This document shows positions 10,012 to 45,410 of a stretch of DNA of 64,000 nt, in pieces (position 1 is the stretch's first letter; every line of letters begins with the position of its first letter). The notes under the pieces were generated by a model. The model did not search any database and was not told the origin of the DNA. It saw only the letters and a list, made by a program, of their open reading frames with translations. The DNA is from Limonium bicolor (lineage: Eukaryota > Streptophyta > Magnoliopsida > Caryophyllales > Plumbaginaceae): contig CM041779.1 in assembly GCA_023374045.1 (NCBI GenBank), positions 295,688,167 through 295,752,166 of the forward strand, in the 5' to 3' direction. Both the position numbers and the translations under genes were made by a program.

Positions 10012-10410
10012 GTGTCGCCGGTCAGAGGCGTGGTTCGGTTTGGGAAGCGTGGGAAGCTTAGCCCGAGGTTCGTTGGACCGTTTGAGATTCTGGAGAGGAT
10101 TGGCCCTGTGGCTTACCGTTTGGCTTTGCCACCTGCTTTGTCTGCTGTCCACGGAGTTTTCCATGTGTCTATGTTGAGGAAGTATCTGCATGATCCGTCT
10201 CATGTGATCGACTACAGCCAGCTTCAGTTGAGAGAAGATTGCAGTTTCGAGGCGGTGCCTATTCGCATTCTAGCCAGGGACGTCCGTCGGCTTCGTAGTA
10301 AGACCCTGCCTATGGTGAAGGTCCAGTGGTCAGATCAGCTAGAGAGTGAAGCTACGTGGGAGCTCGAAGATGAGCTGCGTGCCAAGTTTCCCTCCTTGTT
10401 CGAGCAGTAA
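10012..10410 (+). pseudogene. Integrase C-terminus and chromodomain-like tail of element C
   Basis: Open frame carrying the end of the integrase ([28 protein letters not shown]) and a short chromodomain-like segment (MVKVQWSDQ...ATWELEDEL) up to the final stop at 10410. In chromoviruses this tail is thought to steer integration to particular chromatin. It is out of frame with the preceding integrase segment, so it is listed separately. Confidence 0.85.
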
Positions 10411-10441
10411 GGTGAGTTAATCTCGAGGACGAGATTCTTTT

Positions 10442-10454
10442 AAGGGGGAGGTGA
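10442..10454 (+). other. Polypurine tract of element C
   Basis: Purine-rich AAGGGGGAGGTGA directly before the 3' LTR, the expected primer for plus-strand DNA synthesis. Confidence 0.88.
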
Positions 10455-23300: not shown

Positions 23301-23697
23301 TCTTAAGTAACAGTCTGCGCTCTGCACAAAGAATGCGGCCTCTATGCCGCCCCAACCAGTCCATCCCGGCTATAACGTCGAATCCTAGACCTCTGAACTC
23401 AATAAGGTCAATGGGAAATTCCTCCTCCTTAATACGGATAGTGGCTCCTCTAAAAGACGAGTGCAACTGATCTTCTCCTTAGACGGGAGTGCCACCTTAA
23501 AATCAGGTAACTCTACAGCGTCTAGCCCCAACTTCCCCGCAAGCGAAGGCGAAACGAAAGTATGTGAGGCTCCGGAGTCGAACAATACTAATGCAGCCAC
23601 TCCATTGATAGGAAAGGTACCAGTGAGGATCGCGCGCCCTTGCTGGCCTCCTCCTCAGTAAGTATACTTAAGGCACCTTCCGTCTCCTTAGCACAAC
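20330..23697 (-). pseudogene. Pol of element A (protease, RT, RNase H, integrase), frame-broken
   Basis: Protease motif [10 protein letters not shown] near 23573-23550. RT carries [18 protein letters not shown] and FIDDILIYS (about 22590-22560). RNase H carries [13 protein letters not shown]. Integrase is open in one long frame, 21892-20330, with [23 protein letters not shown] and DGQLERTIQ supplying the D, D, E residues, and it ends in a chromodomain-like tail. The frame changes near 23660, 22975, 22630, 22280 and 21890, so no single polyprotein can be made. The upstream edge 23697 is a proposed splice acceptor (TTGTTAG before GTTGTGC) whose phase fits the end of gag exon 3; the AlkB-like frame lies inside that putative intron. 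Confidence 0.88.
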
Positions 23698-23826
23698 CTA
23701 ACAACAGAATCTGGGTAAGTACTTTGCATATGATGGAGGTCGAAAACATTCACTTTCATAACAATAATGCTTCATTGATGAGATGATCTTCTCTCAGTGT
23801 CCAAAACAATTACAACACTAGTACTT

Positions 23827-24549
23827 CTAAAAGTCAAACTTAATCTTCCTGGTTTCATGTGAGTGGTGTTTATCACTGTCGAAGGTGTTGTGTTCATTTA
23901 ATCCTTTAATTCCATGGTATAGCAACCTTGACTTTCCACCCATTATTAAAACATCTCCTGAATTCAATATGATTTTCTTTGCAAGGTCCACACGCTTCTG
24001 CTCGCCATAAAGGAACTCTGCGTCATCTCCAATTGACAAAGACAATACTGGTATCCCCTGATCGAGGGACCCTTGTGTTTCATCCTTGTCCTGATGTAGT
24101 CCTAAACGGCCTCCTTCTTCATAGAAGTTGATGATACATAGATCAGCCCTTAGATTGGGAACTGGATCTTCTTCTAACTGTTGAGCTGTATTAACTGCTT
24201 GTTCCACAATTTGTAAAAATTTTCCTGGGATTTTTGGCACTTGTGCTTCATCTCCATTTCTTGTATTGGTAGGTCTTTGAGTAGGGATTCCAATCTTTTC
24301 CTAAGCACATCATTTTCAACTTCATTTTTGATCCTCCTGGAAATTCTGGAGTGTAGAACCCTCCTGGTCCCGCTCCTAATTCTTGACATCTTCTGATGAT
24401 TGCAATTTGTGTCTCCGGTGTTAGGTATCCTTTGAGTAGTATCAAACCTGGTTGGATAACCTTACATTGTTCGTTCGTTGGTTCTGTGCTTTGATAAGGT
24501 TTTTCTAGGGAGGGCGGTGAGGGGATAGGAAAGCATATCTTATAGCTTC
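23827..24549 (-). pseudogene. AlkB-like 2-oxoglutarate/Fe(II) dioxygenase in element A
   Basis: AlkB-family enzymes oxidatively remove methyl groups from nucleic-acid bases. The N-terminal half (24549 to about 24248) has VIQPGLILLKGYLTPETQ and GPGGFYTPEFPGGSKMKL, typical of the plant ALKBH1-like group. The catalytic half has GRLGLHQDKDE (the HxD iron ligands) and GDVLIMGGKSRLLYHGI (the distal His). The frame shifts near 24245, between the halves, and again near 23865, so the final RLSLTFR-type arginine motif lies out of frame. The proposed start is a splice acceptor (CACGTAG before GAAGC, 24549), in phase with gag exon 3; there is no convincing ATG. A host gene at this place is excluded because gag and pol of the same element flank it on the same strand, in the same order as in element B. 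Confidence 0.85.
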
Positions 24550-24677: not shown

Positions 24678-26037
24678 CTGGGTTGGTAGAAGGACCAGCC
24701 TCATCCGAGCGGTCCATGACATGCAGGGCGGGTCCCGATGCTGGGCCCTTGCCCTTATTCCCCTGAGCTTGGTTTGTTGGTGGAGGGCGAGTATCGCTGG
24801 CTCCATTCTTATGGCCGGTATTTGCCTTTGCTCCCGGGCGGTAGTTCCGGCTCTCCGGGTTTCGGATGCACTCGAAGGCACGGTGTCCATATATCTGACA
24901 GTGGCGGCACTGGACTTTCTCCCCTTGGAAGTCCACCCCGGGGTGATCCTTTCCACATTGTCTACAGTTGAAGTGGCGGACAACCCTTTGGCCCGTGTTT
25001 GAGCCATGTCCAGAACCTATTACAATCGAGGTCAATTTTATATCCCAACGGTACTGAAGTAATCAAAAAGTTTCAAATTAAACTGCTTGTTTAGAGTGCC
25101 TACCCTTAGATGGGTAAGTTTTCTGGGAGTTTGTAGCTCCGTAGGTTCCTGACTGGGGATTCCCGTAGTATGGTTCCCCTTCCCTTGATAGGGCTTGTTC
25201 CTTCTGTTGGAGTTTCCCTGTTTGGCATCCTCACTGCCAGGTCCATCCTTTCTCTTTTGGGAGCTCAAAGCATCCCTTCTCTTGCATGTGATCTCCACAA
25301 TGGAGGCAGCATGGTAGCATTCCTGAAATCTCAAGGTATCAGTCTCCAAATCTCCCATGACGGGGTATAGTAGGTAATAAAATTTTCAGCTGGTTTAGAC
25401 TCTCCTGTTTTACCTGTAAACTGGTAGGGATGATTGGTCCCATCCCAAACTGGAGTCGAGGACTCAGTCCCCCGTAGAACCGGTCGACCAACACCTGGTC
25501 CGAGTATCCTATTCCGGGCAGTAGTCGGAGTAGTGAAGTAAACTTCGCATAATATTCATCTACCGTCATCTTTCCCGTCTGCTCCAGTGCATCAAACTCC
25601 CTAGTTTTCACCATCCTGGTGTGGGCCGGGTAGTACTTGCCCCTTAGTAGTGCAGTGTAGTGTCCCCAAGTGAAAGCTGGGTCATCCAGGTGGTCGGCCT
25701 TCACCATATTCCACCAATCTCTCGCTGCATCCTTCAGGTAGAAGGCAGCAAGTCTCACTTTTCCCTAGCTGGGACTGCCAGTGTCTCGAACGCTGTTTCC
25801 ATCTCCATAATGTAAGTCTCCAAGTGTGCAGGGTCAGTCTGCCCCTTGAATGCAGTTGGCCTCAGATCAGCCAAACTCTTCACCCAATCCCTCTCTCTGG
25901 GTGGTGGTGGGGAGTGTGGTAGCTGCTGCTGTGCAACCCCCGCCTGTGCAAATGCTTGAGCTATTAAAGTAGCAATGTCTGCCAGCCTGATGGTTGGCTC
26001 CTCTTCGGCCTGTCCACGCGTCCCCTCTTCCTGACAT
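24678..26037 (-). pseudogene. Gag of element A, apparently three exons
   Basis: Start ATG at 26037 (MSGRG). Exon 1 26037-25414 includes the capsid signature YLKDAARDWWNMV and frame breaks near the start and near 25768. Exon 2 25322-25104 begins ECYHAA and has one frame change. Exon 3 25016-24678 holds the zinc knuckle (CRQCGKDHPG and CRHCQIYGHRAFEC) and ends in MDRSDEAGPSTNP. Introns of 91 and 87 bp have GT-AG ends (CAG|GTAAAA...TTTCAG; AAGG|GTAGGC...TAATAG). Element B has introns at the same two places, so this is unlikely to be chance decay. Exon 3 ends at a GT (24677) with one base left over, which fits both the AlkB-like acceptor and the pol acceptor. Confidence 0.78.
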
Positions 26038-26201
26038 CTGCAGGATGTTGAGGTATATTAGATACTGTGGTCACAATCTTGGTCTTGGATAGTAGTCTAA
26101 GTAAAAACTAACTTAAACTCTTTCTGTACTATCACTCAACCCGTAACCTAAGCTTTAGAAATCCTAATCTCGGTGTATTCCTGTATCCAGAGCGTAACTA
26201 C

Positions 26202-26218: not shown

Positions 26219-27269
26219 TGTAACACCCCAACCGAAATCCAATAACCTGTACGGCGATCACTCCCAAATAAAATACAACTGCAGCGGAAATAAATACAAC
26301 AACCGGGCGGTATTACAATGCCGTTGGCCACCCTTGTGGCCAACAAGGCTAACTCCAAATACAATCTCCAAAAGTCACGGTCTGAATACGAATACAATCC
26401 GAGATACTAGGAATCAAACTCAAATGAAAATACTTAAGTAAAACAAATAACTAGTAGGAGACTCCCATAGCTTGAATCTACCCCACCTACACTCGGTGTG
26501 GTAATCTTCTCAACTTCAGGTACCTGAAAAATGGGGGTGCCCCCAAAGGGGCTCAGCAACATTGCTGGTATGGAAAACGTGCAGCCCATCGGCTACCGGG
26601 CCACACCAACTACTTGTCGAATACATGCAGTTCATTTTTGTAAAGCTGTAAACAAACATAGTATGATAATAACAAGAATCCATACAAGGACAACGATGTC
26701 ACATAAAACAAGACTTCAGAAGGTCAAGTTAGATGAACTGTAATCATTTGATAATAGTCGGGTCCGCACGATTGGACTGACAGGTGTAAAGAGTATGTCA
26801 ATACAACGAAGGTATAGTGACCTCGTTAAAAGAAAGGTGGGTAGTTAGTCCCACAGAAAATGATGTAGTTAACTCCTGTACTTGGAAGAGGTGGGAATCG
26901 AACCCTCGAGAGAAATGAAGTCTTCCCCTCCACTTGAACTGTTCCGGTACGCAGCCGGTGAGTGACATAGTGCACCCCCGAACTCTAGAACTGTTCCGGT
27001 ACGCAGCCGGTGAGTGACATAGTGCACCTAGAACTCCCGTCGCGACGTAAATTGATTAGGAGACGACCTGACACAGGTACAACTCCCGTAGCATGCATGG
27101 CCAGATCCAACTGGGCTCCTCGTTCTCGTAGTATGGAATTGTTAGGTGTCAGACAAGGGCATTAATCAAGAATGAAATGTGTACTGTCAGTTATCACGTT
27201 TAGGATAACGACGTTTGTTATAAATGATGTTAGTGAGAGACTTGAGTACAAGTTCTCAGTATAATAAAG
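26219..27269 (-). repeat. 5' LTR of element A, right-copy segment 1
   Basis: Aligns with 15008-16054 of the left LTR, including the tandem pair (about 26935-27030). It is interrupted at ATAATAAAG by insertion of element B; the left LTR reads straight through at that point. Confidence 0.93.
27265..27269. repeat. Target site duplication of element B (left)
   Basis: TAAAG on the left; TAAG on the right at 41587-41590. The uninterrupted LTR at about 16050 reads AATAAAGCGCAGG, so the right copy has lost one A. Confidence 0.8.
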
Positions 27270-30200
27270 TGTAACACCCCTACATCGTACTTCACAACTA
27301 AATGAAATCGCAGCGGGAATAAATAACTAAACAATAACTAACGCTTCGGTGCTACAACGCCGTCAACCACCCACGTGGTTGACAAGGCAGAATAAATACA
27401 AGTGTACCGGTCTGATGATCAGACTCCCGAGCATAAACTAAACCATAAATACATCATATACAATACCGAGTATTACTTACATTCCTTCACTGTAAACTGT
27501 CAATATACCGCCATAGTAATTTCAACGGAATCAAAATATAATGCCACGGGAGCACAGGCGCATCCCGGGCTCAACATCCAAAATAAACCAACATACAACT
27601 GCAGTCTAGATCCTACAGCCACTCTGCCTCCTCGATCCTCATCCTGCAGTAAAAATATGGAGTCCCCCGAGGGGGTCAGCAACCCTTGGATGGTATGGTT
27701 AACGCGCAGCCCATCGGCTACCGGGATACGCGCAACTAATTGTCATGATAACATGGCATTCATTTTATACATAACATAACATAATATGTGGCATAGCATC
27801 AATAGTGCATAGCACAACATCACATACACAGTGGATCTTCGCTCCATAACAAAAACCAAGAAGGTTAAATAACATAAGAGCCTAGAGAATGATTCACTCT
27901 CATGTTAAGCTCGTTACACACACTCATTACCGCTCTGTTATTCGAACGAGTAACTTAAGTCACAGATGGTTCGGATATAGTGACCCGAACACACACACAA
28001 ACACATGTTCCCACTAAACCGATCATAAGTCAGAATAGGTAAGCTTTGGAGGAAGCTAGCGGGAGATCGAACGCCAAATTAAGGAGAACAATCTTAACAA
28101 CATAAGAGTCGAATCTGATTCAGATATCCACTCTTAACTTACATGCATGACCGGACAACCGGATTCCTCACTTCCCAGTTAACACTTGTTAGGAGTTCAT
28201 GGTGGAACTTAACAACCAATGCACAATAGGTGGTAAGTCATGTTAGACACACAAGGGAAATAAGTCACATCATAACATCACAATAATATGAACAACTGTA
28301 AACTCATTACATGTTTAGATCTTATAACGTCATAAACACACAGAAAAACATACAACACACAGCCGGTGTAAACCGGTAGGCGACAGACTGCAAGAAAACC
28401 ATACCTTGGTCCTTGCCTCGATTGATTTCCTCCGTAGGTCACTCCTATACATGTTTAATAACGTCGGTTAATTATTTATTTAACTTCAAACTTACTAAAT
28501 GTTTAACATGATTGTATGACATGTTTTTAATGTCTAACTTACCCTAGGTTACCTTCATTACACCCCCTAGGGTTAACTACATAAGTCACATTCTTTTCTG
28601 TTTTTTTTTTTACAAGTTTTGGTCCGACCGACCTTACCGACCGAACTTACCCAAGTTCGGTCGATTCCAGAACACATTTCCGTCAAAATTTTCTACTCCG
28701 ACCGACCTTGTAAGTTCGGTCGCAAGTTCGGTCCATTCCTGAGAGTTTCTTCTCTTTGAAAATTCAGCCCGACCGAACTTGCCAAGTCCGGTCCCATGTC
28801 CGGTCGATTCCAGAAACTTAATCCGTACACAAAATACAAGCCCGACCGACCTTGCAAGTCCGGTCCCCAAGGTCGGTCCATTCCAGAAGCCAATTCTCGC
28901 AGGGTAAACTGGGCTCGACCGAACTTGCAAGTTCGGTCGCAAGTTCGGTCTACTCCAGACCTTGTTTTCCATTTCTCATTTAACTCCAAACTTCACCCCA
29001 TATATCCAGTACACCCTAACTCATTTGGGCACTTCAAACACACCTTAAGACATCCTTAAACACTCATAAAACTCATAATTCCTTAACCTTTACTCATTTC
29101 TTCCCAAATTCCTAACACTATCTATTTCCTCCTTAGTCTCAAAGTGGTGTTTCATACCTAAAATGACTACATCCCAAAATGCTTTTCCTCACTTCAAATC
29201 ATCTCCCAAGCATCATTTCTTACCATCAACTCCTTATGTCATTCTTGAAATCCTTTTTCAAGTTCACACTTTCTCCTTGTTCACCAAAGTTTGCCCAAAT
29301 CCTAACACAAGTCCAAATGACTCTAGTGTATCCCCAAAACATTCCTTGCATTATAAAATCCTCTAGAACATTTCCTAAGCCCTTCTCACATCTTAAAACA
29401 CCTTAATGCATGTTCTTTCCCAAGGAGAGCACTTAACCATTCCAAACATTTCTTAACTCATCAACTTATTTTTAAACCTTAGGAACTTCTTGTTTGTTAC
29501 CTAAATTTGACATAGGTTCTCCTAGAACATACTAAACCAAAACATATTGTTTTCACCAACAAACAGCCAAGAACACAAAAATCCATCAAACACATCTTAC
29601 ACACAAACTTCACACATATAGCACTACATCACAATATAGTGAAATTTAAATTGCATGGCACTTAGGCCCTTAAATGACATGGCTCTTAGGCCCTTAAAAT
29701 GCATAAATCATAACACTGAATTTCCCAATATATTTGCCTTTGACCTGCAAATACACTCAAACCACATATGCCTTTACTAAACTCTTAAGAGCATTCTTCT
29801 AAGTCACTTCTCATTGGCTCCTTAGATATCTTCATAAGAAATACAAGCACATTTCTCCTAAGACTTGAAACCACATTAGGTTAGCATATTTACCTCTTTT
29901 CCACACAAACTTCTTCTTTGTTTCCTTATAAAAACCGGTAAGGTATTTGATTCCTTGTCAACTACTAAACATTATACAAATCACATAATGAGTATTCAAG
30001 CTTTAAGCTTCATCTCATTGTAAACCTAGGTTTACATTATTTCAAAAACATTAATGTAGTTGTTTTACCTTGGTCTTTGAAGAGAGTTTGAATATATATC
30101 AAGAGAGGACTCCACCTAGTCCTTGAAAGGTGGAATGAAGCTAGAACAAAGTCACACAAAGAGCACCATTAATGGGCATTTTCGGTCAAGGTAAAAACAT

Positions 30201-31198
30201 GGAGGAAACATGATTTTTCTTTGAGATTCCTTACCTAGAAGCAAAGGAGAGTAATAATATGTAGAAATGTAAGCTCAAGCTCCTTCAATGGTGGAACTCC
30301 ATGGCACCGAAATGGGGCTCTTGAAGTTTTGAGAAGATAGGAATGAGAGCTTGATGAGAGGAAGAGAATGGTGGTGTTTGTTTTGATGGTGTAAGTGAGC
30401 TAGGAATTAAAAGTGGTCAAAGATGGAGTTTGTGTTGGTTTACTATTACAATCGTGTATGAAGAGAAGAAGAGAGGTTGAAGAAGACTTGGAACCGTGGG
30501 AAATGAAGGAAGGAAAGAAATGAGAGAATGAGATAAGTGAGTTTGTTTTGCTTTTTAGAAGATATTTATGCGTATAAAGTAAAAAGTAACTTAAGTAGTC
30601 TTCTTCATTTTCTTAACATATTAACAAGAGAGTGGTGAGTCACCACACTTAAGAAAACCGGCCCCCAATAGTACTTAGGGGTAATATAGTCTTTATTTGT
30701 CAATTTAATTACTTATACAACATATGTTACAAAATAGCTTATTAAAATCACTATTCATAAAAACAAGGCACATAGAAGTGAAATTTTTGATTTCCCATTG
30801 ATATAGACTTCAAAATGTGATACTATATAGTACACATGTTAATTAAAGAGTAATGATGGACATCTAGCCATTAAAAACTCATTTACAAGAAATTTTTCGA
30901 AAATGTGCTTTAAGACTCCTTAAAGTACATTTTGTGTTTTAACTTGTTTCCAAGCTTGGTTTTCTTTGGTAATTGGTTTAATATGTTCATTAATATATAA
31001 ATAAGGTCTTGGTAAGTTCATTAGGTCTTAACCAAGCTTATCCCAAGCTTAGAGCACATTTTGGCCTTTATTGACCTTAAAGCACATTTTGTGTTTTCTT
31101 TTGTTTAAATTTGTTTACTAATGTTTCTAAGACTCTTTTTAGTCTTAATATACCATATTTAGGTGTTTAAACAATATACTAAGCTTTGGGGTATTTCA
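27270..31198 (-). repeat. 3' LTR of element B (left copy)
   Basis: 3929 bp, TGTAACACCCC to GGGGTATTTCA on the plus strand. It contains the five-unit hairpin array at 28621-28965. The remainder is AT-rich with no convincing gene. Confidence 0.95.
28621..28965. repeat. Hairpin array in 3' LTR of B (five units)
   Basis: Five units about 72-75 bp apart, e.g. GACCGACCTTG ... CAAGGTCGGTC, each followed by a CCATTCCAG- or GATTCCAG-like tail. In the last unit the left arm GACCGAACTTG is followed by two consecutive copies of CAAGTTCGGTC, so it can pair with either. Confidence 0.88.
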
Positions 31199-31214
31199 AT
31201 CTACCCCCCTGAAA
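31199..31214 (-). other. Polypurine tract of element B
   Basis: On the minus strand CAGGGGGGTAGAT directly precedes TGAAATACCCC, the start of the 3' LTR. Confidence 0.85.
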
Positions 31215-31480
31215 AGAACTTTGTCCTCAAAGTTCACACTTCCACATATCCTAACTGATAGAACACGGGAATACTTATAAACAATACTTCCATACATCAT
31301 TAACAACCCACTTACATAACGTTGGACACAAGGTCCATACAACATAACATCGGGTACATAACATTGGACACAAGGTCCATACAACATCATCAACATCATT
31401 CAGACACAACGGTCTGTAACATGACAACATAACATAGACGATGTATTCAAATACACGTCGTACACACATAACCGAAAGCG

Positions 31481-31518
31481 GCTCTACCCCCCTTAAAAAG
31501 GGGTACGCCCCGTACCCT
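31481..31518 (-). other. Second PPT-like tract of element B
   Basis: On the minus strand, just after pol: GGGTACGGGGCGTACCC (an inverted repeat), then a T/A run and AAGGGGGGTAGAG. The core matches the LTR-proximal PPT about 280 bp away. The same arrangement is present in element A. Confidence 0.6.
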
Positions 31519-31531
31519 ATACACATAAGCA

Positions 31532-34500
31532 CTAAGAAGTAAACAATGACGGGTACTTCGCCTTCATCTTGTCTTCCAGCTCCCAAGTGGCCTCCTCAAC
31601 GTCCTGGTTAGACCAAAGAACTTTCACCAGTCTCACAGACCTATGGCGAGTGTCTCGAGTCTTAGTATCCAGAATCCGTACCGGAGTCTCCACTGATCGC
31701 ATGGTCGGCTCTAAGGTTAGCCTTTCAGGCTGAAGCACATGAGACGGATGAGACATATACTTCTTCAACTGGGACACATGAAATACATCATGTACCTTGC
31801 CCAGCTCGGCGGGTAAATCAAGTCTATAAGCTACCGGGCCGATCCGCTCCGTCACAACATAAGGCCCCACATATTTTGGGCTCAACTTGCCTTTCTGGCC
31901 AAAACAAAATACTCCCTTCATGGGGGATACTCTCAAAAATACCTGATCGCCCACGGCGAACTCCAGGTCACGTCTGCGCACATCTGCGTACGACTTCTGT
32001 CTATCCTGAGCTGCTTTCATGTTAGCCTGGATCTGGCGAACTTCTGCCTGAACTTGTTCAAGATACTCTGGTCCTATAATGACCGTCTCACTCGACTCAT
32101 CCCAGCATAATGGCGTGCGGCATGGTCTACCGTACAAGGCCTGGAAGGGAGACATCTTGATCGATGCATGATAACTGTTGTTGTAACTAAACTCGATCAG
32201 ATGTAACTTATCAATCCAGCTGGTCTGAAAGTCAAGTGCACATGCACGTAACATATCCTCAAGTGTCTGGATGGTACGCTCACTCTGACCATCTGTCTGT
32301 GGGTGGAACGCTGTACTTAGCTTCAGCTCGGTGCCAAGCGCTTCCCGTGTAGACTTCCAATACCTCGACAAGAATCTGGTATCTCTGTCCGATACAATGG
32401 TCTTCGGTACCCCATGATGTCTTACAATTTCTCTATCAAAGAGTTCTGCCAGTTTTGCCACTTTCCAGGTGTCCTTCATCGGAATGAATCGGGCCACCTT
32501 GGTCAGTCGGTCAACAACAACCCATATCATATTCAGACCTCCCCTTGTAGGCGGAAGCCCTACTACGAAGTCCATGGAAATATCATGGAACTTCCACTCA
32601 GGCACTGGCATTGGCTGTACCATACCACCAGGCCGTCGGTGCTCAAACTTGACCTTCTGGCAAGTGAGACACCTCAACACATAATCACTTACATCTTTTT
32701 TCATTCCAGTCCACCAAAAATATCTTTTCATACCCTTATACATCTTTGAAGCTCCGGGGTGAATCGAAGTAGTAGAACAATGGGATTCACTCAATATGCG
32801 CTCCTTCAACTCAGTGCTACTCCTCGGTATACACAGTCGACCATTAAGCCTAATCAGGTCATCATCGTGGAGTCTGAAGTCGTACTTCTGACCCTCGAAT
32901 GTGCCATCAATAAGCTTCTGCCTGATCTCTATCATATACTGATCCGTCATCTGAGCACTCCGCACCTCTTTAACCAAGCCAGTATGAGAGACTAGCGAAT
33001 GGAGAGAGTGTGCTCGGCGACTCAATGCGTCAGCTACCACATTTGCCTTACCCTCTTTATATTGCAGATTAATGTCGTAGTCATTCAGAAATTCAACCCA
33101 CCTTCTTTGTCTCATGTTCAACTCCTTCTGAGTGAACAAGTACTTTAAGCTTTTGTGGTCAGAATAGATTGTCACACTTACCCCATACAAATAATGTCGC
33201 CATATCTTCAATGCGAAGACAATGGCACCCAACTCTAGATCGTGGGTAGGATAGTTCTCCTCATGCTTTTTCAGCTGTCGGGAGGCGTAAGCTACGACCT
33301 TCCCGTGTTGCATCAATACACAACCCATACCTCTACCTGATGCGTCGCAATAGACCTCAAAACCATCTGGACCGTCTGGTATAGTCAGGACTGGTGCAGA
33401 AGTCAGAGCATCCTTGAGACTCGTGAAAGAACTCTCACAGTCGACTGTCCACTCGAATGGTGCATCCTTCTTCATCAAGGAAGTCATCGGCTTCGAGACA
33501 CTGGAGAAGTCCTTTACAAACCTCCTATAATAACCTGCCAGACCGAGGAAGCTCCTGATATCGGTAACTGTCTTCGGCCTAGGCCAGGTGCGCACTGCAT
33601 CTATCTTTGCCGGATCAACAGCGATCCCGGCCTCAGAAATCACATGTCCAAGAAAGGATACTTGGTTCAACCAAAATTCACATTTCGAAAACTTAGCATA
33701 CAACTGATTCCTTCTCAATGTTTGTAACACATTTCTCAGGTGGCTTTCGTGCTCACCTCTCGATTTCGAGTACACAAGAATATCATCGATGAAGACTACC
33801 ACAGACTTGTCCAACTGATCTTGGAACAAGCGGTTCATTAAGTCCATGAACTTAGCTGGTGCATTTGATAAGCCAAACGGCATAACTGTGAACTCATAAT
33901 GCCCATACCTAGTTCTGAATGCTGTCTTTTCAATATCACTGTCACGGATGGCAATCTGATGGTACCCGGATCGTAGGTCTATCTTGGAGAATACTGATGC
34001 TCCCCTCAGCTGATCAAATAGATCGTCGATGTGTGGTAAAGGGTAACGGTTCTTCACCGTAACTGCATTCAGCTCTCGATAGTCAATACACAGGCGGAGG
34101 CTACCGTCCTTCTTCTTCACGAAGAGGACCGGCGCTCCCCATGGTGAAACGCTAGGGCGGATGAACCCCTTGTCGAGTAGGTCTCTCAGCTGCTCCTTGA
34201 GCTCAGTCATTTCTGCTGGAGCCATACGATAGGGCGCCTTCGCAATTGGTCCGGTACCCGGAACCAAATCAATCTCAAACTCCACTTCCCGTGCTGGCGG
34301 CATGCCCGGCAGTTCCTTAGGAAATACATCAGGAAACTCCGACACTACCGGCACATCTGGGCTGAACTCTGGATCTCTCTCTATGTCCTGGACATAGCAG
34401 AGGTATACATTACTCCCTCGTCGTAATTCACGATACATAGCCATGGCGGTGATGATCTGAGTCGAAGGCTCCCTGGGCCTCTGGCGGTAAGATATGGTAA

Positions 34501-34911
34501 CCCCAGATGGACTCCGAAGAAGTAGTCGATGCTCGGCACACAGGATTCTGCCCTTGTACCGCTCCAACCAGTTCATCCCGACAATCACATCAAAATCAAG
34601 TCCGTCGAACTTTATCAAGTCGATCGGAAACTCTTCACCTCTGATTCGTACAACAGCATCTCGGTGGTAGCGGGTACACCTGGTCCGCTCTTTCGACGGG
34701 AGAGTGACTAGAAAGTCTGGCATCTCATAACCGTCTAACCCCAGCCTCTTCGCAAAAGATAGCGAAATAAATGTGTGTGAGGCTCCGGAGTCGAACAAGA
34801 TCGAAGCGTCCACGCCATTGACTGGAAAGGTACCGGTGAGGATTGTGCCGCTCTTGCCGGCTTCTGCCTCATTGCAGACACTCAGTATACCTCCCGTTCC
34901 GAGTGCACAGC
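31532..34911 (-). CDS. Pol polyprotein of element B (PR-RT-RNH-INT-chromodomain-like)
   Basis: An uninterrupted frame with every catalytic motif. Protease [10 protein letters not shown] lies at the start. RT has [18 protein letters not shown] and FIDDILVYS. RNase H has [13 protein letters not shown] and [16 protein letters not shown]. Integrase has [23 protein letters not shown] and DGQSERTIQ (D, D, E). The tail [19 protein letters not shown] is chromodomain-like. From the first in-frame ATG (34813) it is 1093 residues, but that ATG lies only a few codons before the protease motif, so it is probably not the true start. The same frame is open back to 34911, where AATTAG precedes GCTGTGC; this putative acceptor has the phase of gag exon 3's donor. 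I infer a spliced Gag-Pol. It copies and integrates the element. Confidence 0.93.
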
Positions 34912-35094
34912 CTAATTCATTGGCAAACTAATAAGTATTGGGTAACAACCGGTTGATATACTTCAATAACTCCACTTTATTCATTAACACATTCTCCTTA
35001 CAACATTGTTGGTTTACACTGTTGACATAACTTAACACATATATAATATCCCTAACATACACTGGCTTAACACATTACATAATTATACAAGGCT

Positions 35095-35832
35095 TTAAAA
35101 CTGTCTGAAGGTCAAATTCAAACGTCCGGGTTTCATGTGTGTGGCATTGATCACTGCCGACGGTGCGGTATTCAGTTTGATCTTTCTGATGCCATGATAT
35201 AGCATCCTTAACTGCCCACCCATGATTAACACATCTCCCGATTTCAACACTAGCTTCTTTGCGAGATCAGCACGCTTCTGCTCGCCATACACAAACACTG
35301 CGGTATCACCAATGGACCAAGACACCACGGGTACTCCCTTACTTAGAGACTCGGGTGACTCGTCCTTATCTTGGTGTAAACCTAATCGTCCACCTTTCTG
35401 GTAGAAGTTCACAATACACAAATCTGCTTTCACATTTGGAATTGAATCCGTTTCAACTTGTTGAGCAATTCCTACGGCGTGGTTAACGACCGCATGGAAC
35501 TCCTCGGGAATACTTGGTACTGTTGCTCCGTCTTCAGCTCGCACTTCTTGATATGTCTTGGTGTAAGGGTTCCAGTCCTTACCCATGCACATCATCTTCA
35601 ATTGCATTCTTGATCCGTTCGGGTATTCGGGTGTGTAGAAACCTCCAGGTTTTGCTCCTAGTTCATCGCATCATCTGATGATATGGATTTGTGCTTCCGG
35701 TGTCAGGTATCCATTTAAGAGTATCATACCTGGCTGGATAACCTGACATTGCTCCACTGGAAAGTCGGTGATGTTGATGGTGGTTTCTTCAGGGTTTGGT
35801 GTGGGTGGGATTGGATAACATATTGAAGGTTC
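35095..35832 (-). pseudogene. AlkB-like 2-oxoglutarate/Fe(II) dioxygenase in element B
   Basis: AlkB-fold nucleic-acid demethylase. The open part 35607-35095 contains the whole catalytic core: CIVNFYQKGGRLGLHQDKDE (HxD), GDVLIMGGQLRMLYHGI (distal His) and GRLNLTFRQ (both arginines of the RxNxTxR motif that binds 2-oxoglutarate in AlkB). Upstream, VIQPGMILLNGYLTPEAQ and GGFYTPEYPNGSRMQL continue the family match, interrupted by an in-frame TGA at 35671-35673 where element A has an arginine codon; CGA to TGA is the change expected from CpG decay. The proposed acceptor at 35832 (TTAAAG before GAACC) aligns with A's, but B is two bases shorter just after it, which also shifts the frame. Over the 77 residues from CI(I/V)NFY to YHGI, A and B match at 56 positions by my count. 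Confidence 0.87.
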
Positions 35833-35979
35833 CTTTAAGTTTAGAATTATCTAGTTAGGTGACTTTCACACTATACTTTAACTCTTTACTCACATGATAA
35901 CACATTTGGACTCACTAGTACACACATGCATGAAATGCGGTATGCAATCACTTATTACATTCAACAGTTTAGGCGGTAC

Positions 35980-37437
35980 CTGGTCTAGAAGAGGGCCCTG
36001 GCGCCTCAGACCGGTCCACCACATTCAGGGCGGCCTTGCTAGGTCCCGACCCCTTCCCCTTCTGGGAATCAGTGTGTCTCTGATCAGCGGGTGGCTGGTT
36101 AGCCGTCTTCGGGCATCAATAGCTGTTGTGGCCTTACCCTTCCATGCCCTTGGGCGGTTGACTCTACGTTGGGGTTCCGGGTAACACTCGTAGTCACGGT
36201 GACCCCACTTCTCGCAGTAACGACACTGTACGTCGTTTCCCTTGCAGTCCTTGCCGGGGTGGTCTCCGTTGCACCACTTACAGTAATAGTGGCGCTCCGG
36301 TCCAGAGCCCGTGCTAGCTGCTATCACAATACACAATCAATACTTGTTCCACAATTTATCAACATACACTTCAACTTATCACACAGGATTAGATAATTAC
36401 CCTTAGGTAGGTAAGAGCGTAGGGGTTTTGCCGCATAAGCATATGTGAGCTTCAGTGGCTCCTCAGCTGTGGTGGTTTGGGCTTGGACCTTGTCACCCTG
36501 GTGCTGACTCTTCTGGGGCTGGGGATAAGGTTTCTTCTTCTTCTTTCCTCCCCCGTACCCCTGCGGACTCTGGCCCTCGCTCGTGGCCTTGCACTTGTGC
36601 GCATTCTCCTCGTCCCTCAGACGGACGGTGATCTCAACCTTAGCAGCGGCATGATAGCACTCCTGAATTTAGGATGTCAGTCATGCCCCGCAAACATACT
36701 CACAAACTCACATTAATACTCACTTATGGATTACACTTATTCACATCACACTTCATTAAAATTACTTGCAAGGTAGTATACTCAGCTGGCCCCATCCCAT
36801 AGCGAAGACGGTGGCTGAGACCGTTGTAAAAACGGTATACCAGTACCCGGTTCGAGTATCCCAGGTCCGGTAACAGGTGGATAAGGCCGGTGAATGCAGT
36901 GTAGTACTCATCAACCGACACCTTGTCCCCCTGCCTCAGACTATCCAGCTCCAGGCGCTTGGCCTCTTGAACATGCACAGGGTAGTATTTGGCTCGCAGT
37001 AGAGCCGTGTACTCCCTCCATCCAAACTGAGGATCCGCCATCCGGTCCTCTCTCACAAGCTTCCACCAACTCTGTGCCGAACCCTTCAGGTAGTAAGCGG
37101 CAAGACGGACCTTAGCCTCTGCAGGTACAACCAAGGTCTCGTAGGCGGTCTCCAACTCGGAGATGTACGCCTCCAGCTTACGTGGGTCGGTCTCCCCATG
37201 AAATGAAGGGGGTCTAAGTGCCAATGCCTTGACCCAGTTGGTCTCTCGTGGCGGTGGCGGTGGTGGTTGAACTTCGGGGTGTTGCCCCTGCTGAATTGCA
37301 GCTACTAGTTGTGGAACCATTTGGGCTACGGCGGCCGCTACAGCTTCGGCCATGACCTGGGCCGTAGTATTCTCGCCCTGGTCATCCGTATCTCCAGTAC
37401 CGCTTCCGCGGCCCCTACCTCGCGGTCTACCTGACAT
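35980..37437 (-). CDS. Gag of element B, apparently three exons
   Basis: Exon 1 37437-36766 (224 codons from MSGRPRGRGRG) holds the capsid region with YYLKGSAQSWWKLV. Exon 2 36662-36401 begins ECYHAAAKVEITVRL and has a lysine-rich stretch. Exon 3 36320-35980 has the zinc knuckle (CKWCNGDHPGKDC, CRYCEKWGHRDYEC). Introns are 103 bp (CAA|GTAATT ... ATTCAG) and 80 bp (AAGG|GTAATT ... GTGATAG), phases 0 and 1, matching element A. Without splicing Gag would stop soon after exon 1 and lack its nucleocapsid. After the zinc knuckle the frame drifts once (stop near 36025) before the VVDRSEAPGPSSRP end that matches A, so this copy carries at least one indel. Confidence 0.78.
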
Positions 37438-37637
37438 CTGAATTCACATGAACATTATTAGCATTATGCTTACACACTTATCGGTTCCAACGGTTGAAAC
37501 GTTTCCCGACAACAAGGTATCTCCACACTTGGTTAGTGGTTAACCTTTCCATAACTGATCACTTAGGTAACTGTAGTTAGGTTTCCTAACTCGGTATATT
37601 CCTAAGCTCGGTATTCTAGTCATCAGAGCGATACTTC

Positions 37638-37649
37638 GCTCTGATACCA
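37638..37649 (-). other. Primer-binding site of element B
   Basis: TGGTATCAGAGC on the minus strand, next to the 5' LTR; initiator methionine tRNA primer. Confidence 0.93.
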
Positions 37650-37654
37650 CTTTT

Positions 37655-40600
37655 TGTAACACCCCTACATCGTACTTCACAACTAAATGAAATCGCAGCG
37701 GAATAAATAACTAAACAATAACTAACGCTTCGGTGCTACAACGCCGTCAACCACCCACGTGGTTGACAAGGCAGAATAAATACAAGTGTACCGGTCTGAT
37801 GATCAGACTCCCGAGCATAAACTAAACCATAAATACATCATATACAATACCGAGTATTACTTACATTCCTTCACTGTAAACTGTCAATATACCGCCATAG
37901 TAATTTCAACGGAATCAAAATATAATGCCACGGGAGCACAGGCGCATCCCGGGCTCAACATCCAAAATAAACCAACATACAACTGCAGCTAGATCCTACA
38001 GCCACTCTGCCTCCTCGATCCTCATCCTGCAGTAAAAATATGGAGCCCCCGAGGGGGTCAGCAACCCTTGGCTGGTATGGTTAACGCGCAGCCCATCGGC
38101 TACCGGGATACGCGCAACTAATTGTCATGATAACATGGCATTCATTTTATACATAACATAACATAATATGTGGCATAGCATCAATAGTGCATAGCACAAC
38201 ATCACATACACAGTGGATCTTCGTTCCACAACAACAAACCAAGAAGGTTAAACATAAGAGCCTAGAGAATGATTCACTCATGTTAAGCTCGTTACACACA
38301 CTCATTACCGTTCTGTTATTCGAACGAGTAACTTAAGTCACAGATGGTTCGGATATAGTGACCCGAACACACCACACAAACACATGTTCCCACTAAACCG
38401 ATCATAAGTCAGAATAGGTAAGCTTTGGAGGAAGCTAGCGGGAGATCGAACGCCAAATTAAGGAGAACAATCTTAACAACATAAGAGTCGAATCTGATTC
38501 AGATATCTACTCTTAACTTACATGCATGACCGGACAACCGGATTCCTCACTTCCCAGTTAACACTTGTTAGAAGTTCATGGTGGAACTTAACAACCAATA
38601 CACAATAGGTGGTAAGTCATGTTAGACACACACAAGGGAAATGAGTCACATCATAACATCACAATAATATGAACAACTGTAAACTCATTACATGTTTAGA
38701 TCTTATAACGTCATAAACACACAGAAAAACATACAACACACAAGCCGGTGTAAACCGGTAGGCAACAGACTGCAAGAAAACCATACCTTGGTCCTTGCCT
38801 CGATTGATTTCCTCCGTAGGTCACTCCTATACATGATTAATAACGTCGGTTAATTATTTATTTAACTTCAAACTTACTAAATGTTTAACATGATTGTATG
38901 ACATGTTTTTAATGTCTAACTTACCCTAGGTTACCTTCATTATACCCCCTAGGGTTAACTACATAAGTCACATTCTTTTCTGTTTTTTTTTTACAAGTTT
39001 TGGTCCGACCGACCTTACCGACCGAACTTACCCAAGTTCGGTCGATTCCAGAACACATTTCCGTCAAAATTTTCTACTCCGACCGACCGATTGTAAGTTC
39101 GGTCGCATGTTCGGTCCATTCCCGAGAGTTCTTCTCTTTGAAAATTCAGCCCGACCGAACTTGCCAAGTCCGGTCCCATGTCCGGTCGATTCCAGAAACT
39201 TAATTATACACAAAATACAAGCCTGACCGACCTTGCAAGTCCGGTCCCCAAGGTCGGTCCATTCCAGAAGCCAATTCTCGCAGGGTAAACTGGGCTCGAC
39301 CGAACTTGCAAGTTCGGTCGCAAGTTCGGTCTGCTCCAGACCCTTGTTTTCCATTTCTCATTTAACTCCAAACTTCACCCCATATATCCTAGTACACCCT
39401 AACCTCATTTGGGCACTTCAAACACACCTTAAGACATCCTTAAACACTCATAAAACTCATTTCCTAATTCCTTAAACCTTTACTCATTTCTTCCCAAAAT
39501 TCCTAACACTTATGTATTTCCTCCTTAGTCTCAAAGTGGTGTTTCATACCTAAAATGACTACTATCCCAAAATGCTTTCTCCTCACTTCAACATCATCTC
39601 CCAAGCATCATTTCTTACCATCAACTCCTTATGTCATTCTTGAAATCCTTTTTCAAGTTCACACTTTCTCCTTGTTCACCAAAGTTTGCCCAAATCCTAA
39701 CACAAGTCCAAATGACTCTAGTGTATCCCCAAAACATTCCTTGCATTATAAAATCCTCTAGAACATTTCCTAAGCCCTTCTCACATCTTAAAACACCTTA
39801 ATGCATGTTTCTTTCCCAAGGAAGCACTTAACCATTCCAAACATTTCTTAACTCATCAACTTTTTTAAACCTTAGGACTTCTTGTTTGTTACCTAAATTT
39901 TGACATAGGTTCTCCTAGAACATTACTAAACCAAAACATATTGTTTTCACCAACAAACAGCCAAGAACACTAAAAATCCATCAAACACATCTTACACAAA
40001 CTTCACACATATAGCACTACATCACAATATAGTGCATAATTTAAATTGCATGGCACTTAGGCCCTTAAATGACATGGCTCTTAGGCCCTTAAAATGCATA
40101 AATCATAAACACTGAATTTCCACAATATATTTGCCTTTGACCTGCAAATACACTCAACACACATATGCCTTTTACTAAACTCTTAAGAGCATTCTTCTAA
40201 GTCACTTCTCATTGGCTCCTTAGATCATCTTCATAAGAGATACAAGCTCATTTCTCCTAAGACTTGAAACCACATTAGGTTAGCATATTTACCTCTTTTC
40301 CACACAAATTCTTCTTTTTTCCTTATAAAACCGGTAAGGTATTTGATTCCTTGTCAACTACTAAACATTATACAAATCACATAATGAGTATTCAAGCTTT
40401 AAGCTTCATCTCATTGTAAACCCTAGGTTTACATTATTTCAAAAACATTAATGTAGTTGTTTTACCTTGGTCTTTGAAGAGAGTTTGAATATATATCAAG
40501 AGAGGACTCCACCTAGTCCTTGAAAGGTTGGAATGAAGCTAGAACAAAGTCACACAAAGAGCACCATTAATGGGCATTTTTGGTCAAGGTAAAAACATGG

Positions 40601-41586
40601 AGGAAACATGATTTTTCTTTGAGATTCCTTACCTAGAAGCAAAGGAGAGTAATAATATGTAGAAATGTAAGCTCAAGCTCCTTCAATGGTGGAACTCCAT
40701 GGCACCGAAATGGGGCTCTTGAAGTTTTGAGAAGATAGGAATGAAGAGCTTGATGAGAGGAAGAGAATGGTGGTGTTTGTTTTTGATTTGGTTAAGTGAG
40801 TTAGGAATTAAAAGTGGTCAAAGATGGAGTTTGTGTGTTTACTATTACAAATCGTGTATGAAGAGAAGAAGAGAGGTTGAAGAGACTTGGAACCGTGGGA
40901 AATGAAGGAAAAAATGAGAGAATGAGATAAGTGAGTTTGTTTTGCTTTTTAGAAGATATTTATGCTTATAAGTAAAAGTAACTTAAGTAGTCTTCTTATT
41001 TTCTTAACATATTACAAGAGAGTGGTGAGTCACCACACTTAAGAAAACCGGCCCCCAATAGTACTTAGGGGTATATAGTCTTTATTTGTCAATTTAATTA
41101 CTTATACAACATATGTTACAAAATAGCTTATTAAAATCACTATTCATAAAAACAAGGCACATAGAAGTGAAATTTTTGATTTCCCATTGATATAGACTTC
41201 CAAATGTGATACTATATAGTACACATGTTAATTAAAGAGTAATGATGGACATTTAGCCATTCAAAACTCATTTACAAGACAATTTTTCGAAAATGTGCTT
41301 TAAGACTCCTTAAAGCACATTTTGTGTTTTAACTTGTTTCAAGCTTGGTTTTCTTTGGTAATTGGTTTAATATGTTCATTAATATATAATAAGGTCTTGG
41401 TAAGTTCATTAGGTCTTAACCAAGCTTATCCCAAGCTTAGAGCACATTTTGGCCTTTATTGACCTTAAAGCACATTTTGTGTTTTCTTTTGTTTAAATTT
41501 GTTTACTAATGTTTCTAAGACTCTTTTTAGTCTTAATATACCATATTTAGGTGTTTAAACAATATACTAAGGTTTGGGGTATTTCA
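37655..41586 (-). repeat. 5' LTR of element B (right copy)
   Basis: 3932 bp, nearly identical to 27270-31198; most differences are single-base indels and occasional substitutions. It includes the second copy of the hairpin array. The junction at 41586 returns directly to element A's LTR sequence. Confidence 0.95.
39002..39344. repeat. Hairpin array in 5' LTR of B (five units)
   Basis: Same five units as at 28621-28965. The second unit carries a short CCGA duplication that weakens its stem; the other four keep their pairing. Confidence 0.87.
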
Positions 41587-44500
41587 TAAGCGCAGGTATT
41601 TAATCCACTGGTATAGTAGTGTTTGTATGCGTGGGACATACACTCGTAGTTAGCTCATTCACGCACATAAAATAATACAACATGCACACGAGTAAACAAC
41701 ATTTACAATTATTATCTTGGTCGTTATTTCAAACACAGATAGCACACAAGCCGGTGTAATCCGGTAGAAAACGGTTCAAGAATCCCATACCGTTCACCGT
41801 AGACTGTACTTGTTTAATTCCCGGTCAACGTTGGTCAAACAAAGTCCTAGAATAGGATTAACTGAGAGGGTTTATTTTATTTACCCTTATATATAGTCTT
41901 ATTGATCATTCAACAAATTTCGTATTTGTTTATTTTCATGTGAGGTTTATCTCTTTTAATTACCTCATGCTTTCATGTACAACTTATTTGTTACTCCTTT
42001 TATTTATTTATAAACTTTAATGTACATGTAAGTATTTATTTATTCATGTACTATGTTTGTTGTTTATTTTGATTGTCTAGGTGACATAACAACTTATAAT
42101 TCCTTAACTATATTTATATGTCATACATGGACATAATATTCTTATAGTTTTTATTATACCTCCTTTAACCATATATTATAATTATTGGTTACCTTTAATT
42201 TCCTTATAACTATATTAGTCATAGTTTCATCTTCATAATTCCTTTAATCAAAATCCTTTCTTCTAATTCCTCCAATATCCATATAGGACCTATATTTATT
42301 TAAATCTAAATTCTTACCCTTATTTTCGGTTATTTACAAAACAACCACATTAATTCATAAACTTTATTTTTAAATTCTAATCTCATCATATTATATAGTT
42401 TTAATTCCTTATTTAATTAAATCACAAAACTACCATTAATATTTTGGTATATACTTTTAAATATTGCAACTTTTGAAAATTACAACTTAGCCCCTCCAAT
42501 TCTCGGCCTATATATATATATTTCTTATAATTGCAATTTAGCCACAAAATCTTATAATCTTTACATAATGCCTTATAAACTATAGTTTTAATTTTAATTC
42601 TCCATAAATGCCGAATATATATATATAAATTCTTAAATTACCAAACTAACCCCAAGTAATTCAGCTTTGTCATTTATTTTTCCTTAATTACATTTTTATC
42701 CCAAAACTTTATAATAGTTTCTTAATAACTTATAAACTATAGTCTAAATATTCAATTCCTCAAAATTTCGAAGGTGAACCTAATAAATCTCTTAATTATG
42801 AATTCGCCCACTAATAAGTTCCAAACTTTCATAACAACTTTTATAAATTACATAATAGCCCAAAACTTTATAAAATGTTATTTTAACACTTGTTTAAATT
42901 ATCTAAAATCATAAACTTAATTCCTAACCTTATATTATATTATAATTACACCAAACAGACCCTTAACTCTCGGTTTTCACATTAAACTCACCAAACTTTG
43001 TAAAAATTACATTTAAGCCACATAACTTAATTAATTAGCCATTTAAGCTCTAATAAAATATTTTTAACTCACCAAACTTTATAGTATAAGTTTATATACA
43101 TAAGTAGCTCATAAAAATCTATTTTTCACTTAGACAATTCGGCCATAATTAAATAGCTACCATATAGTATATAAAAGTGGATTTATATATCATAATAATA
43201 TACATAAATTCATATGAGTCATATAACTCATGTAAAAATTATTGTAATGTCTTATATGGATTCTTAGCTCAAAATAAAGTATTTTTGCCCTTGACATTTC
43301 GGCTTGAATTTATATGTAACATAAAAATCTTGTGACACAAATTGTGTCTTAAGGTAAATATTTTCCATATATGTTATAGATTATATTTTTGGCATATAAT
43401 ACCATATAGTTTCGGTTTTAATTAACCTAGGAGATGTACATAATTTTTGTATAATTTTTAGAAGCTTAACAAAGCTTATAACATAAAGATTTACTTAGTA
43501 AACTTACTTCTTAACAAGGTGGTTAAGTGCTTGAACTCTTCTTGAATCTCCAAGCTTTCTCCAATGAAATTTTGATGCTCTACTTCGGTTATATGCAAGT
43601 GGTGAAGGAGTTTAGGAGTTAGATCTTCAATAAAGATCTTAAGTAGATTTGTAAGTAGTTTTACAAGAATTTACCTTAAGCTTTTCTCCTTATAATTTCG
43701 GCTCACTTAAGGTGGATGAAGAACAAGTTTTCCTTCATGAAAATGAAGAGAAAAGAGCCTTAGAAGAGATAGAAATCGGTTACACAATAAAATGTGCTTT
43801 AAGGATTTTCAAGCTTGAAAACTACCTTAAGATAACCTTGAGATGCTCCTTGGTTTAATGTTGGTTTGGACAACCTCCTTGGAACAATAGTTGATTCCTA
43901 AATGCTATGGTGTGCTAGGAAGAGTTTTGCTTCAAGGCTTGACAAGAAATGCTAGGAAATTACCTTAAAGATGAAGATAGAAGTTAAAACTCCATTAATG
44001 GACTTAAGAGCTTCAAAGGAAGAAGATGAAGCAAGAAGAGAGAGGAGAGAGCCTTACCAATTCGTGAATGAAGTGTGCAAGGGGAAGAATGAGACTAAGC
44101 TCACGTAAGAAGAGAATGCAATTTGGAATTTGATTTTTGTTTTGTTAATTTTTAATGTCATTTGACCATTCTTTCCTTTAGTTTATTCCATGAGTTATTG
44201 GCTCAATAAATGCCCCTCTTTCCAGCATGTGTTCGGCCATAATGCAAGACAAGGCAAGGTGGAGGGAAATAATTGTGAGCTAAGAGACAAGGTAAGAAAA
44301 GTAAGGTTTATTCTTTTGATTTTTCAATGTTTGTAACTTGTCTTCTTCTTCCTTGTAGGTGCACGATTTCAAGGGCCAAATGGAGCTCATCAATCGGCAT
44401 TTAGGAGCTAAGAACAAGCTAGGAAGGTCACTTGAAGTTTAAGAAATGAAAAAGGTGGAATCTAGATCTACTTTTTGCCTTTTTCATTTTGTTTTTGTCT

Positions 44501-45410
44501 AGCCACATGGCCTTGTTCCCTTGCATAATTTCGACAGCTTGCTGGTCATATGAGACCTATATTTCTTTGCCATTAAGTATTATAGCACATGGGAAGATGA
44601 GTCACCATGTTTTATGCCTTTTATAAAATTTTAATGTAAGTTTTATACTAGTTTTTGCACATAAAATCGGCCCCTATAGAGCACCTTTTTTGACACTGTC
44701 ATTAATTGATTTAGAGGGTCATTTTAACCCTATTTAAGATTCTTAATTCGTGGCATGTCAAAAACTACAAGGTAATTGCGTAAAACGTGTTTTTGTGACA
44801 CCCGAAGGTGTGTTTTTGTGCTCTAAGGATATTTTGTAAAATAAATTGTCTTTATGAGTTCCAAGTGTTTATAAACACTTATTATAGTAAATAAACATAT
44901 ATTAAGATGTTACATTGAGTTATATGGGGTTACATCAACCCGTGACATAATTTACGGGCCATCGGGACACTCCCGGGCAAAAAGGAGCGCTAAGAAATCC
45001 TCCTGTGGTTTTTGTTGAATTTTGAGAAACCACTTCGTGGGTTCTCTTTAGAATGGTTAATAATGATGTTAGGAACTCTAATAATTAATTTTATAGGAGT
45101 TCGTGCCACCTCGGCACCCCTCCGGGCTTTTCGTGCTTTAAGGGGCGTGCGTGAGCACTCCCGAGCATTTTGCGTTTTTGGCTGAATATAGCCTAGGGAA
45201 TATGTTTATATATTCATATAATGACTGTATGACCATTGGTTTGAGTTTTAGAAGGTCATACAAGGTCATGCTTGATCACATGTTTCTAAGGACTATTTTT
45301 ACGTAACGTTTTCATGCATGGGTTTGCATGCGTACGTGAAATGATTTATATTTGGATTATACTCCATTAAATAATGGTTTTATAATATTAATTAGATTTG
45401 GGGTATTTCA
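41587..45410 (-). repeat. 5' LTR of element A, right-copy segment 2
   Basis: Resumes at the exact base where segment 1 stopped (AAGCGCAGGTATTTAATCC) and runs to GGGGTATTTCA. It aligns with about 16050-19872 of the left LTR. Confidence 0.93.

Follow-up and report, generated by a model that had tools for sequence, protein, structure and literature searches.

Organization of the locus

The window, that is, the whole 64,000-nucleotide stretch of Limonium bicolor DNA analyzed here, contains three pairs of long terminal repeats (LTRs) in self-comparison, which belong to elements A, B, and C. Element B is a Ty3/gypsy retrotransposon of 14.3 kb with LTRs, a PBS, a PPT, and the order gag-PR-RT-RH-IN, and it holds a frame for an AlkB-type dioxygenase between gag and pol (Table 1). 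A sequence-only reading of this DNA had described near-identical LTRs, a PBS, and a PPT, with gag and pol on the strand of AlkB, and we found the same: the LTRs of B are 97.3% identical by BLAST (K2P divergence, 0.0132; 51 differences in 3895 sites), the PBS is TGGTATCAGAGC, the PPT is AGGGGGGTAGAT, and gag, AlkB, and pol all lie on the minus strand. We take this PBS to be of the tRNA-iMet type. The insertion is flanked by a short, imperfect target duplication, and the pre-insertion site is visible in the uninterrupted counterpart LTR of element C. The gag of B is broken between its capsid and zinc-knuckle parts, and the pol is open.

Table 1. Positions of the features of elements B and C in the window.
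Feature	Position	Strand	Basis or remark
Element B, AlkB-carrying Ty3/gypsy	27270-41586	-	LTR pair by self-BLAST; sits in LTR of element C
5' LTR of B	37655-41586	-	self-BLAST
PBS of B, TGGTATCAGAGC	37638-37649	-	read from sequence
gag of B, capsid part	36724-37437	-	Retrotrans_gag and Ty3_capsid matches
gag of B, zinc-knuckle part	36025-36336	-	separate open piece; knuckle by eye
Proposed splice donor GT (CCAG/GTA)	35978-35979	-	last gag exon base 35980; phase 1
Proposed splice acceptor 1, AG, directly ahead of AlkB	35833-35834	-	phase 1
AlkB (ALKBH1C/D type), proposed exon with own stop codon	35095-35832	-	one in-frame stop at 35673-35671
AATAAA, poly(A)-signal-like, AlkB-pol spacer	34976-34981	-	by sequence
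TACTTAT, branch-point-like	34931-34937	-	by sequence
Proposed splice acceptor 2, AG, ahead of pol	34912-34913	-	phase 1
pol of B: PR, RT, RNase H, integrase, weak chromodomain	31532-34911	-	open
PPT of B, AGGGGGGTAGAT	31199-31210	-	read from sequence
3' LTR of B	27270-31198	-	self-BLAST
5' LTR of C, outer part	41587-45410	-	self-BLAST; split by B
5' LTR of C, inner part	26219-27269	-	self-BLAST; split by B
gag of C, in pieces	24678-26057	-	donor after 24678
AlkB of C, frameshifted, three frames	23818-24549	-	PF13532 match
pol of C, in pieces	20330-23697	-	acceptor 2 before 23697
3' LTR of C	15008-19872	-	self-BLAST

Element C shares with B the PBS TGGTATCAGAGC, a G-rich PPT, and the LTR ends TGAAATACCCC...GGGGTGTTACA. 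Its gag, AlkB, and pol are all broken, and its AlkB (PF13532, E 3.3e-30) occupies the same position between gag and pol as that of B. The self-BLAST comparison gave DNA identities between B and C of 73% in pol and 71% in AlkB, and no match between the two gag genes at the same setting. The LTR divergence of C is 0.0127 (K2P), and both elements would be about half a million years old at a substitution rate of 1.3e-8. The pol domains matched were RVP, RT, RNase H, integrase, and SH3_Tf2-1. Chromo (PF00385) scored 21.5 bits in B (E 0.00022) and 22.6 bits in C (E 0.0001), under the Pfam curated cut-off of 25.1 in both cases, and by these matches the lineage of B and C is best called a chromovirus-like Ty3/gypsy lineage.

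The third element, A (3632-12665, plus strand), is gypsy-like, with LTRs at 3632-5851 and 10454-12665 that are 1.2% diverged, a GTATA target duplication, and gag and pol frames; no AlkB frame was seen among its listed ORFs. To the left of A, a short, internally repeated stretch (2132-2553) is 71-76% like the parts of the B LTRs at 28602-28959 and 38983-39340. A long tandem array with overlapping self-matches, whose smallest offsets are about 130 and 250 bp, occupies 51278-53533, and the frames at 47013-48486 and 50800-51279 presumably encode a MULE-type transposase and a plant mobile domain protein.

Identity of the AlkB frame

The boundaries given to the frame by the sequence-only reading are exact: the frame runs on the minus strand from 35832, just past a conserved splice-acceptor-like AG, to 35095, where the stop codon ends. 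Coding on the plus strand of this interval was rejected, as it contains many stops. The open piece at 35095-35670 matched the Pfam profile 2OG-FeII_Oxy_2 (PF13532) with E 2.8e-43 and 148.9 bits against a cut-off of 31.2, which upholds the assignment to AlkB, and the active-site set is complete as had been claimed, with the HxD, the distal His, and both Arg. The HxD...H and RxxxxxR motifs are accompanied by a predicted double-stranded beta-helix fold. The copy in B is not intact, having the in-frame stop listed in Table 1 and a length difference relative to other copies near its start.

The closest relatives of the element AlkB, by sequence and by structure, are the plant ALKBH1C/D proteins. 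These comparisons, one of them on a predicted fold, indicate that the enzyme is of the plant ALKBH1C/D (OsALKBH1) type. In regards to the substrate, the earlier assignment to AlkB stands, and its suggestion of RNA m6A has to give way as the default role because the ALKBH1C/D relative of rice acts on 6mA in single-stranded DNA in the available account of that enzyme (PMC10469495).

Database proteins P0001-P0004 and P0011 are element-like AlkBs with 63-71% identity, and P0120 has 58%; all lie on ENA or Logan contigs, which points to the presence of the lineage in other sampled DNA. A profile search with seven element AlkBs yielded, among the best 120 of 964 proteins (E up to 1e-30), no element-like AlkB beyond these six, as judged by identity. 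The AlkB scan of viral contigs gave no relatives.

Abundance in the host genome

We searched the host assembly (2.92 Gb) with the AlkB query and found at least 150 places with at least 96% identity over the full 191 residues among the best matches listed. An exact degenerate pattern for GLHQDKDE had 9,536 matches (4,765 + 4,771), and a pattern for the protease start of the lineage had 12,907 (6,474 + 6,433); the reversed control of each had none. Both counts are too low, because an exact match of 24 or 26 bases was demanded. Counting a repeat unit of about 10.4 kb for every protease motif, the family would occupy near 5% of the genome.

The two motifs occur together. The first 14.25 Mb of C1 contains 100 protease motifs: 54 of them are preceded on their own strand, at a distance of 350-750 bp, by an exact AlkB motif, and none has an AlkB motif on the other strand at 750 bp or less; in the reverse view, a protease motif lay near 54 of 73 AlkB motifs. 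Eight of the other 46 protease sites were sampled, and all eight had an AlkB homologue: five carried GLHQDKDE with a glycine codon outside the pattern, and the motif was changed in three. AlkB was thus present at all 62 settled protease sites of this region (54 by motif and 8 fetched of 46). In two places, C1:1430339-1461739 and C1:497439526-497470359, AlkB occurs in one-strand runs of four with spacings of about 10.46 kb and about 10.1 kb; these are close to an LTR plus internal part, and the runs are probably tandem arrays that share LTRs.

Twenty copies were chosen by hand from 100 listed AlkB places so as to span the motif variants, and 9.9 kb was read around each. On the strand of AlkB, gag was found upstream in 18/20, and the downstream region contained protease, RT, and RNase H in 19/20 each, integrase in 18/20, and the chromodomain region in 17/20. 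The exceptions included L012, which is cut by other sequence, and L025 and L026, which lack a gag match. Many of these 20 copies have a disrupted AlkB frame. The earlier proposal that the frame is cargo of the element is supported, and other copies carry it.

Selection on AlkB

Between B and C, the pN/pS value of AlkB was 0.287 (bootstrap, 0.227-0.366; 235 codons), compared with 0.443 for gag (379 codons) and 0.141 for pol (1,104 codons); synonymous sites are near saturation in this pair. We then compared 29 rows, consisting of 27 genome copies, B, and C (L001 was excluded because it is element B). The dN/dS values of AlkB in five distance bins were 0.085, 0.197, 0.157, 0.204, and 0.113, and the corresponding ranges were 0.071-0.149 for RT-RNase H, 0.061-0.201 for integrase, and 0.135-0.381 for gag. 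The first bin rests largely on L002-L008, and its value is lowered because these copies were selected as nearest to the query. Among scored rows, the distal His is kept in 29/29, the first Arg in 26/28, and the second Arg in 27/27; the HxD residues give no evidence of conservation in the sampled copies, since the AlkB motif itself selects for an intact HxD. These results indicate that AlkB is under purifying selection, tighter than that on gag and somewhat looser than that on pol.

The sequence-only reading had named three findings that would count against it, namely a frame confined to one copy, dN/dS close to 1 across copies, and a lack of profile support. The first is contradicted inside the window by C, which has an AlkB of its own in the corresponding place, and also by the genome copies; dN/dS is well below 1 in every bin, and the profile search supports AlkB.

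Splice signals and reading phase

The gag-AlkB and AlkB-pol borders were aligned across the 29 rows, of which L025 is non-homologous upstream and L012 downstream. A GT follows gag in all 28 homologous rows, and 27 have AG|GTA. An AG precedes AlkB in 27/28 homologous rows (L009 lacks it at the aligned columns) and precedes pol in 27/29 (L012 has foreign sequence, and L025 a deletion). TACTYAY lies 24-30 nt upstream of acceptor 2 in 26/29 rows. AATAAA is present in the AlkB-pol spacer in 21/29 rows and absent in eight, including all four C-type rows.

The spacers themselves have diverged. Among divergent, hand-picked rows, the mean pairwise identity was 0.446 upstream (11 rows) and 0.371 downstream (10 rows), compared with 0.657-0.731 in the flanking coding parts. 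In putative intron 1, conservation in at least 90% of 11 subfamily rows is limited to 8 of 159 dinucleotide positions, with GT and TA of the donor and TA and AG of the acceptor among them; the conserved splice dinucleotides are not independent observations, because the compared copies are related. Among nine subfamily rows of the second spacer, the AG of acceptor 2 falls under the 90% cut because L025 lost it by deletion. A stretch containing ATG/TG, about 86-100 columns past the donor of intron 1, is also kept in at least 10 of the 11 subfamily rows.

The donor and both acceptors are in phase 1. The gag frame is open for 20 codons ahead of the donor in 27/28 rows (not L004), AlkB for 20 codons past acceptor 1 in 27/28 (not B; L006, L015, and L028 shift frame within), and pol for 25 codons past acceptor 2 in 26/27 (not L005). 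An out-of-phase gag-AlkB junction, seen in B alone, was rejected, since 26 further copies and C read in the AlkB frame. A joined Gag-AlkB frame would read ...VVDR...P-G-TFNICYPIP, where FNIC corresponds to FDIC of host genes; in B-type frames, this motif comes after acceptor 1 and ahead of the first Met. The joined Gag-Pol frame resembles the continuous protease start of relatives without AlkB.

Descent of the lineage and probable capture of AlkB

In the RT-RNase H tree, which left out the Ogre and orchid sequences, 29 AlkB-bearing rows (28 from the host genome and P0122) form one clade (100/100), with L019 and L028 on long branches. P0122, a pol sequence, and the AlkB P0002 come from contigs of equal length and probably share a contig. 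The nearest rows without AlkB, P0139 and P0143 (fork 81/79), are single gag-pol frames with more than 400 residues ahead of the protease start, and P0140 of Cuscuta epithymum has a similar single frame. No PF13532 domain was found among the best 120 of 7,962 pol relatives.

In the AlkB tree, the element rows again form one clade (100/99), which lies on a long stem outside the 53 sampled plant rows (99/93) and inside Volvox and P0085. Two plant-like proteins, P0085 and P0106, have extra residues exactly after G(L/M)HQ, as if an intron had been read through. This insert is absent from the element copies read, which suggests capture through processed RNA. The lineage probably captured an ALKBH1C/D-type gene, presumably by way of a processed mRNA, and kept AlkB as a core gene.

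Proposed expression and function of AlkB

From these sequence comparisons, we consider it probable, with some reserve, that AlkB serves as an alternative 3'-terminal exon of gag and is made by splicing as a Gag-AlkB fusion that acts on element cDNA or RNA. In this model, gag and pol are separated by an intron-like segment, and AlkB is part of that segment. If the whole segment were skipped, from donor CCAG/GTA to acceptor TTAG/G, Gag and Pol would form a continuous frame; use of the inner acceptor would join the end of Gag in frame to AlkB, ending at the AlkB stop, which is often followed by AATAAA; and the unspliced RNA would be the genome. The fusion would carry an adenine-demethylating dioxygenase into or beside the virus-like particle, where it would act on the single-stranded cDNA of the element, its RNA, or both. 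We infer the splicing, the fusion protein, its location, its substrate, its benefit to the element, and the way in which AlkB was captured from sequence. Single-stranded cDNA is a plausible substrate in light of the activity of the rice relative on 6mA in single-stranded DNA; further candidate targets are m6A in RNA, m1A, alkylation damage, and host chromatin.

Several other readings of this layout were weighed. AlkB could be translated on its own, through internal initiation or from a subgenomic RNA with the 5' leader joined to AlkB, the gag-pol intron merely removing it. The AlkB stop codon would suit this reading, as would the Met at PGM(I/V)LL, present in 21/29 rows, and another Met slightly upstream (FPMEQ) in some B-type copies; the AlkB of an orchid element is also described as a separate ORF (PMC9289625). 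The Met at PGM is, however, replaced by Leu in four rows (the C type) and by Ile in one (three were unread), the frame upstream of it is kept down to the FNIC/FDIC motif of the host genes, and the reading phase carries over from gag to AlkB when the donor is joined to acceptor 1. The FNIC ahead of the first Met and the C-type Leu fit a fusion better than an internal start, and we regard separate synthesis as unlikely. Expression of gag and pol without splicing, through readthrough, frameshift, or reinitiation, with the GT and AG as relics or products of chance, appears less likely still. Shared ancestry of the copies would account for some conservation of GT and AG, but expression without splicing does not sit well with the divergence of the spacers relative to the flanking coding parts, with the donor GT/TA and acceptor TA/AG being among the few dinucleotides kept in intron 1, with the common phase of the three junctions, or with the stop codons present in all three frames between gag and pol in both B and C.

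The remaining alternatives concern what AlkB is for. Its reading as a decaying passenger could draw on the stops or frameshifts in many sampled copies, but this was rejected as highly improbable, given the purifying selection found for each distance bin and for the B-C pair, the retention of the distal His and the second Arg in all scored rows, and the occurrence of AlkB at every settled protease site. AlkB may instead act on host chromatin or RNA, for example by removing 6mA at R-loops so that the element stays transcribed, which we hold to be possible but doubtful. The status of 6mA in plant nuclear DNA is disputed, and the Gag fusion proposed here would favour particles over host chromatin or RNA. 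On the other side, rice ALKBH1 is reported to be nuclear, to be needed for the removal of 6mA at R-loops, and to impair PRC2-mediated repression (PMC10469495). Returning to the Gag-AlkB fusion, its full consequence can be put forward only tentatively: a lineage with far more than ten thousand copies in a single plant genome would package Gag-AlkB of the ALKBH1 type with its reverse-transcribing genome, where the enzyme would clean methyl marks or damage from single-stranded cDNA or RNA, and it would represent a second, independent capture of AlkB by gypsy elements, here of an enzyme of the DNA type and not the RNA type.

Comparison with known systems

In the open-licence literature without preprints, we found no report of the present lineage; the only relevant items were a paper on Phalaenopsis and those citing it. 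That paper reports Gypsy_Pa_2799, an AlkB-bearing Ty3/gypsy element of 25 kb with a Tat/Ogre-like RT, a tRNA-Arg PBS, and a dual RNase H, in which a single gag-pol frame is accompanied by an ALKBH5-like ORF2 with m6A RNA demethylase activity in vitro; its authors report that, across 121 genomes, they did not detect the domain in any other plant (Alvarado-Marchena et al. 2022, PMC9289625). In common with this description, the present lineage is a Ty3/gypsy LTR element of high copy number whose AlkB has all cofactor residues and presumably benefits the element. In contrast to it, the present element is 14.3 kb long, with the PBS TGGTATCAGAGC, a chromovirus-like pol, and an ALKBH1C/D-type AlkB within a gag-pol intron-like segment. 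Membership in Gypsy_Pa_2799, judged against its published description, was rejected: the AlkB is of the ALKBH1C/D and not the ALKBH5 type, the PBS is TGGTATCAGAGC and not that of tRNA-Arg, gag and pol are separated, and SH3_Tf2-1 and a weak Chromo match are present. AlkB cargo under selection in a gypsy element is already known in kind; what is new is the lineage, the type of enzyme, and the proposed layout based on splicing.

The occurrence of different AlkB types in two gypsy lineages suggests that retrotransposons have repeatedly profited from adenine demethylation, and hence that hosts may control them at a step involving methyl marks on adenine, or damage, in element nucleic acid. With an AlkB of the DNA 6mA type that is apparently linked to Gag through splicing, this one abundant family makes a role of 6mA or m1A on plant retroelement cDNA or RNA testable, and its AlkB domain offers a natural tool for asking whether plant 6mA has a function. 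Rice OsALKBH1 (PDB 5xeg, 5xoi) and plant ALKBH1C/D are host genes, whereas the element AlkB forms its own clade; the rice protein is described as a nuclear enzyme with in vitro demethylase activity towards 6mA in single-stranded DNA and with a function at R-loops (PMC10469495). ONSEN of Arabidopsis is reported to be mobilised with the help of the host demethylase ALKBH9B (PMC12786077), which indicates that demethylation can help a retrotransposon.

With respect to expression, Ogre elements resemble the present lineage in having a putative intron between gag and pol; unlike it, they belong to another gypsy lineage and, according to the orchid description, typically lack an AlkB ORF (PMC9289625). 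Among plant Copia elements, EVD is reported to produce shGAG, a spliced and prematurely polyadenylated gag mRNA (PMC8892269), and BARE a spliced gag mRNA (PMC3735527). As in our model, splicing in these elements separates a short gag mRNA from the Gag-Pol mRNA, with premature polyadenylation in EVD. The short mRNA of EVD and BARE, as described, encodes Gag alone, whereas that of the present lineage would encode Gag fused to a captured enzyme.
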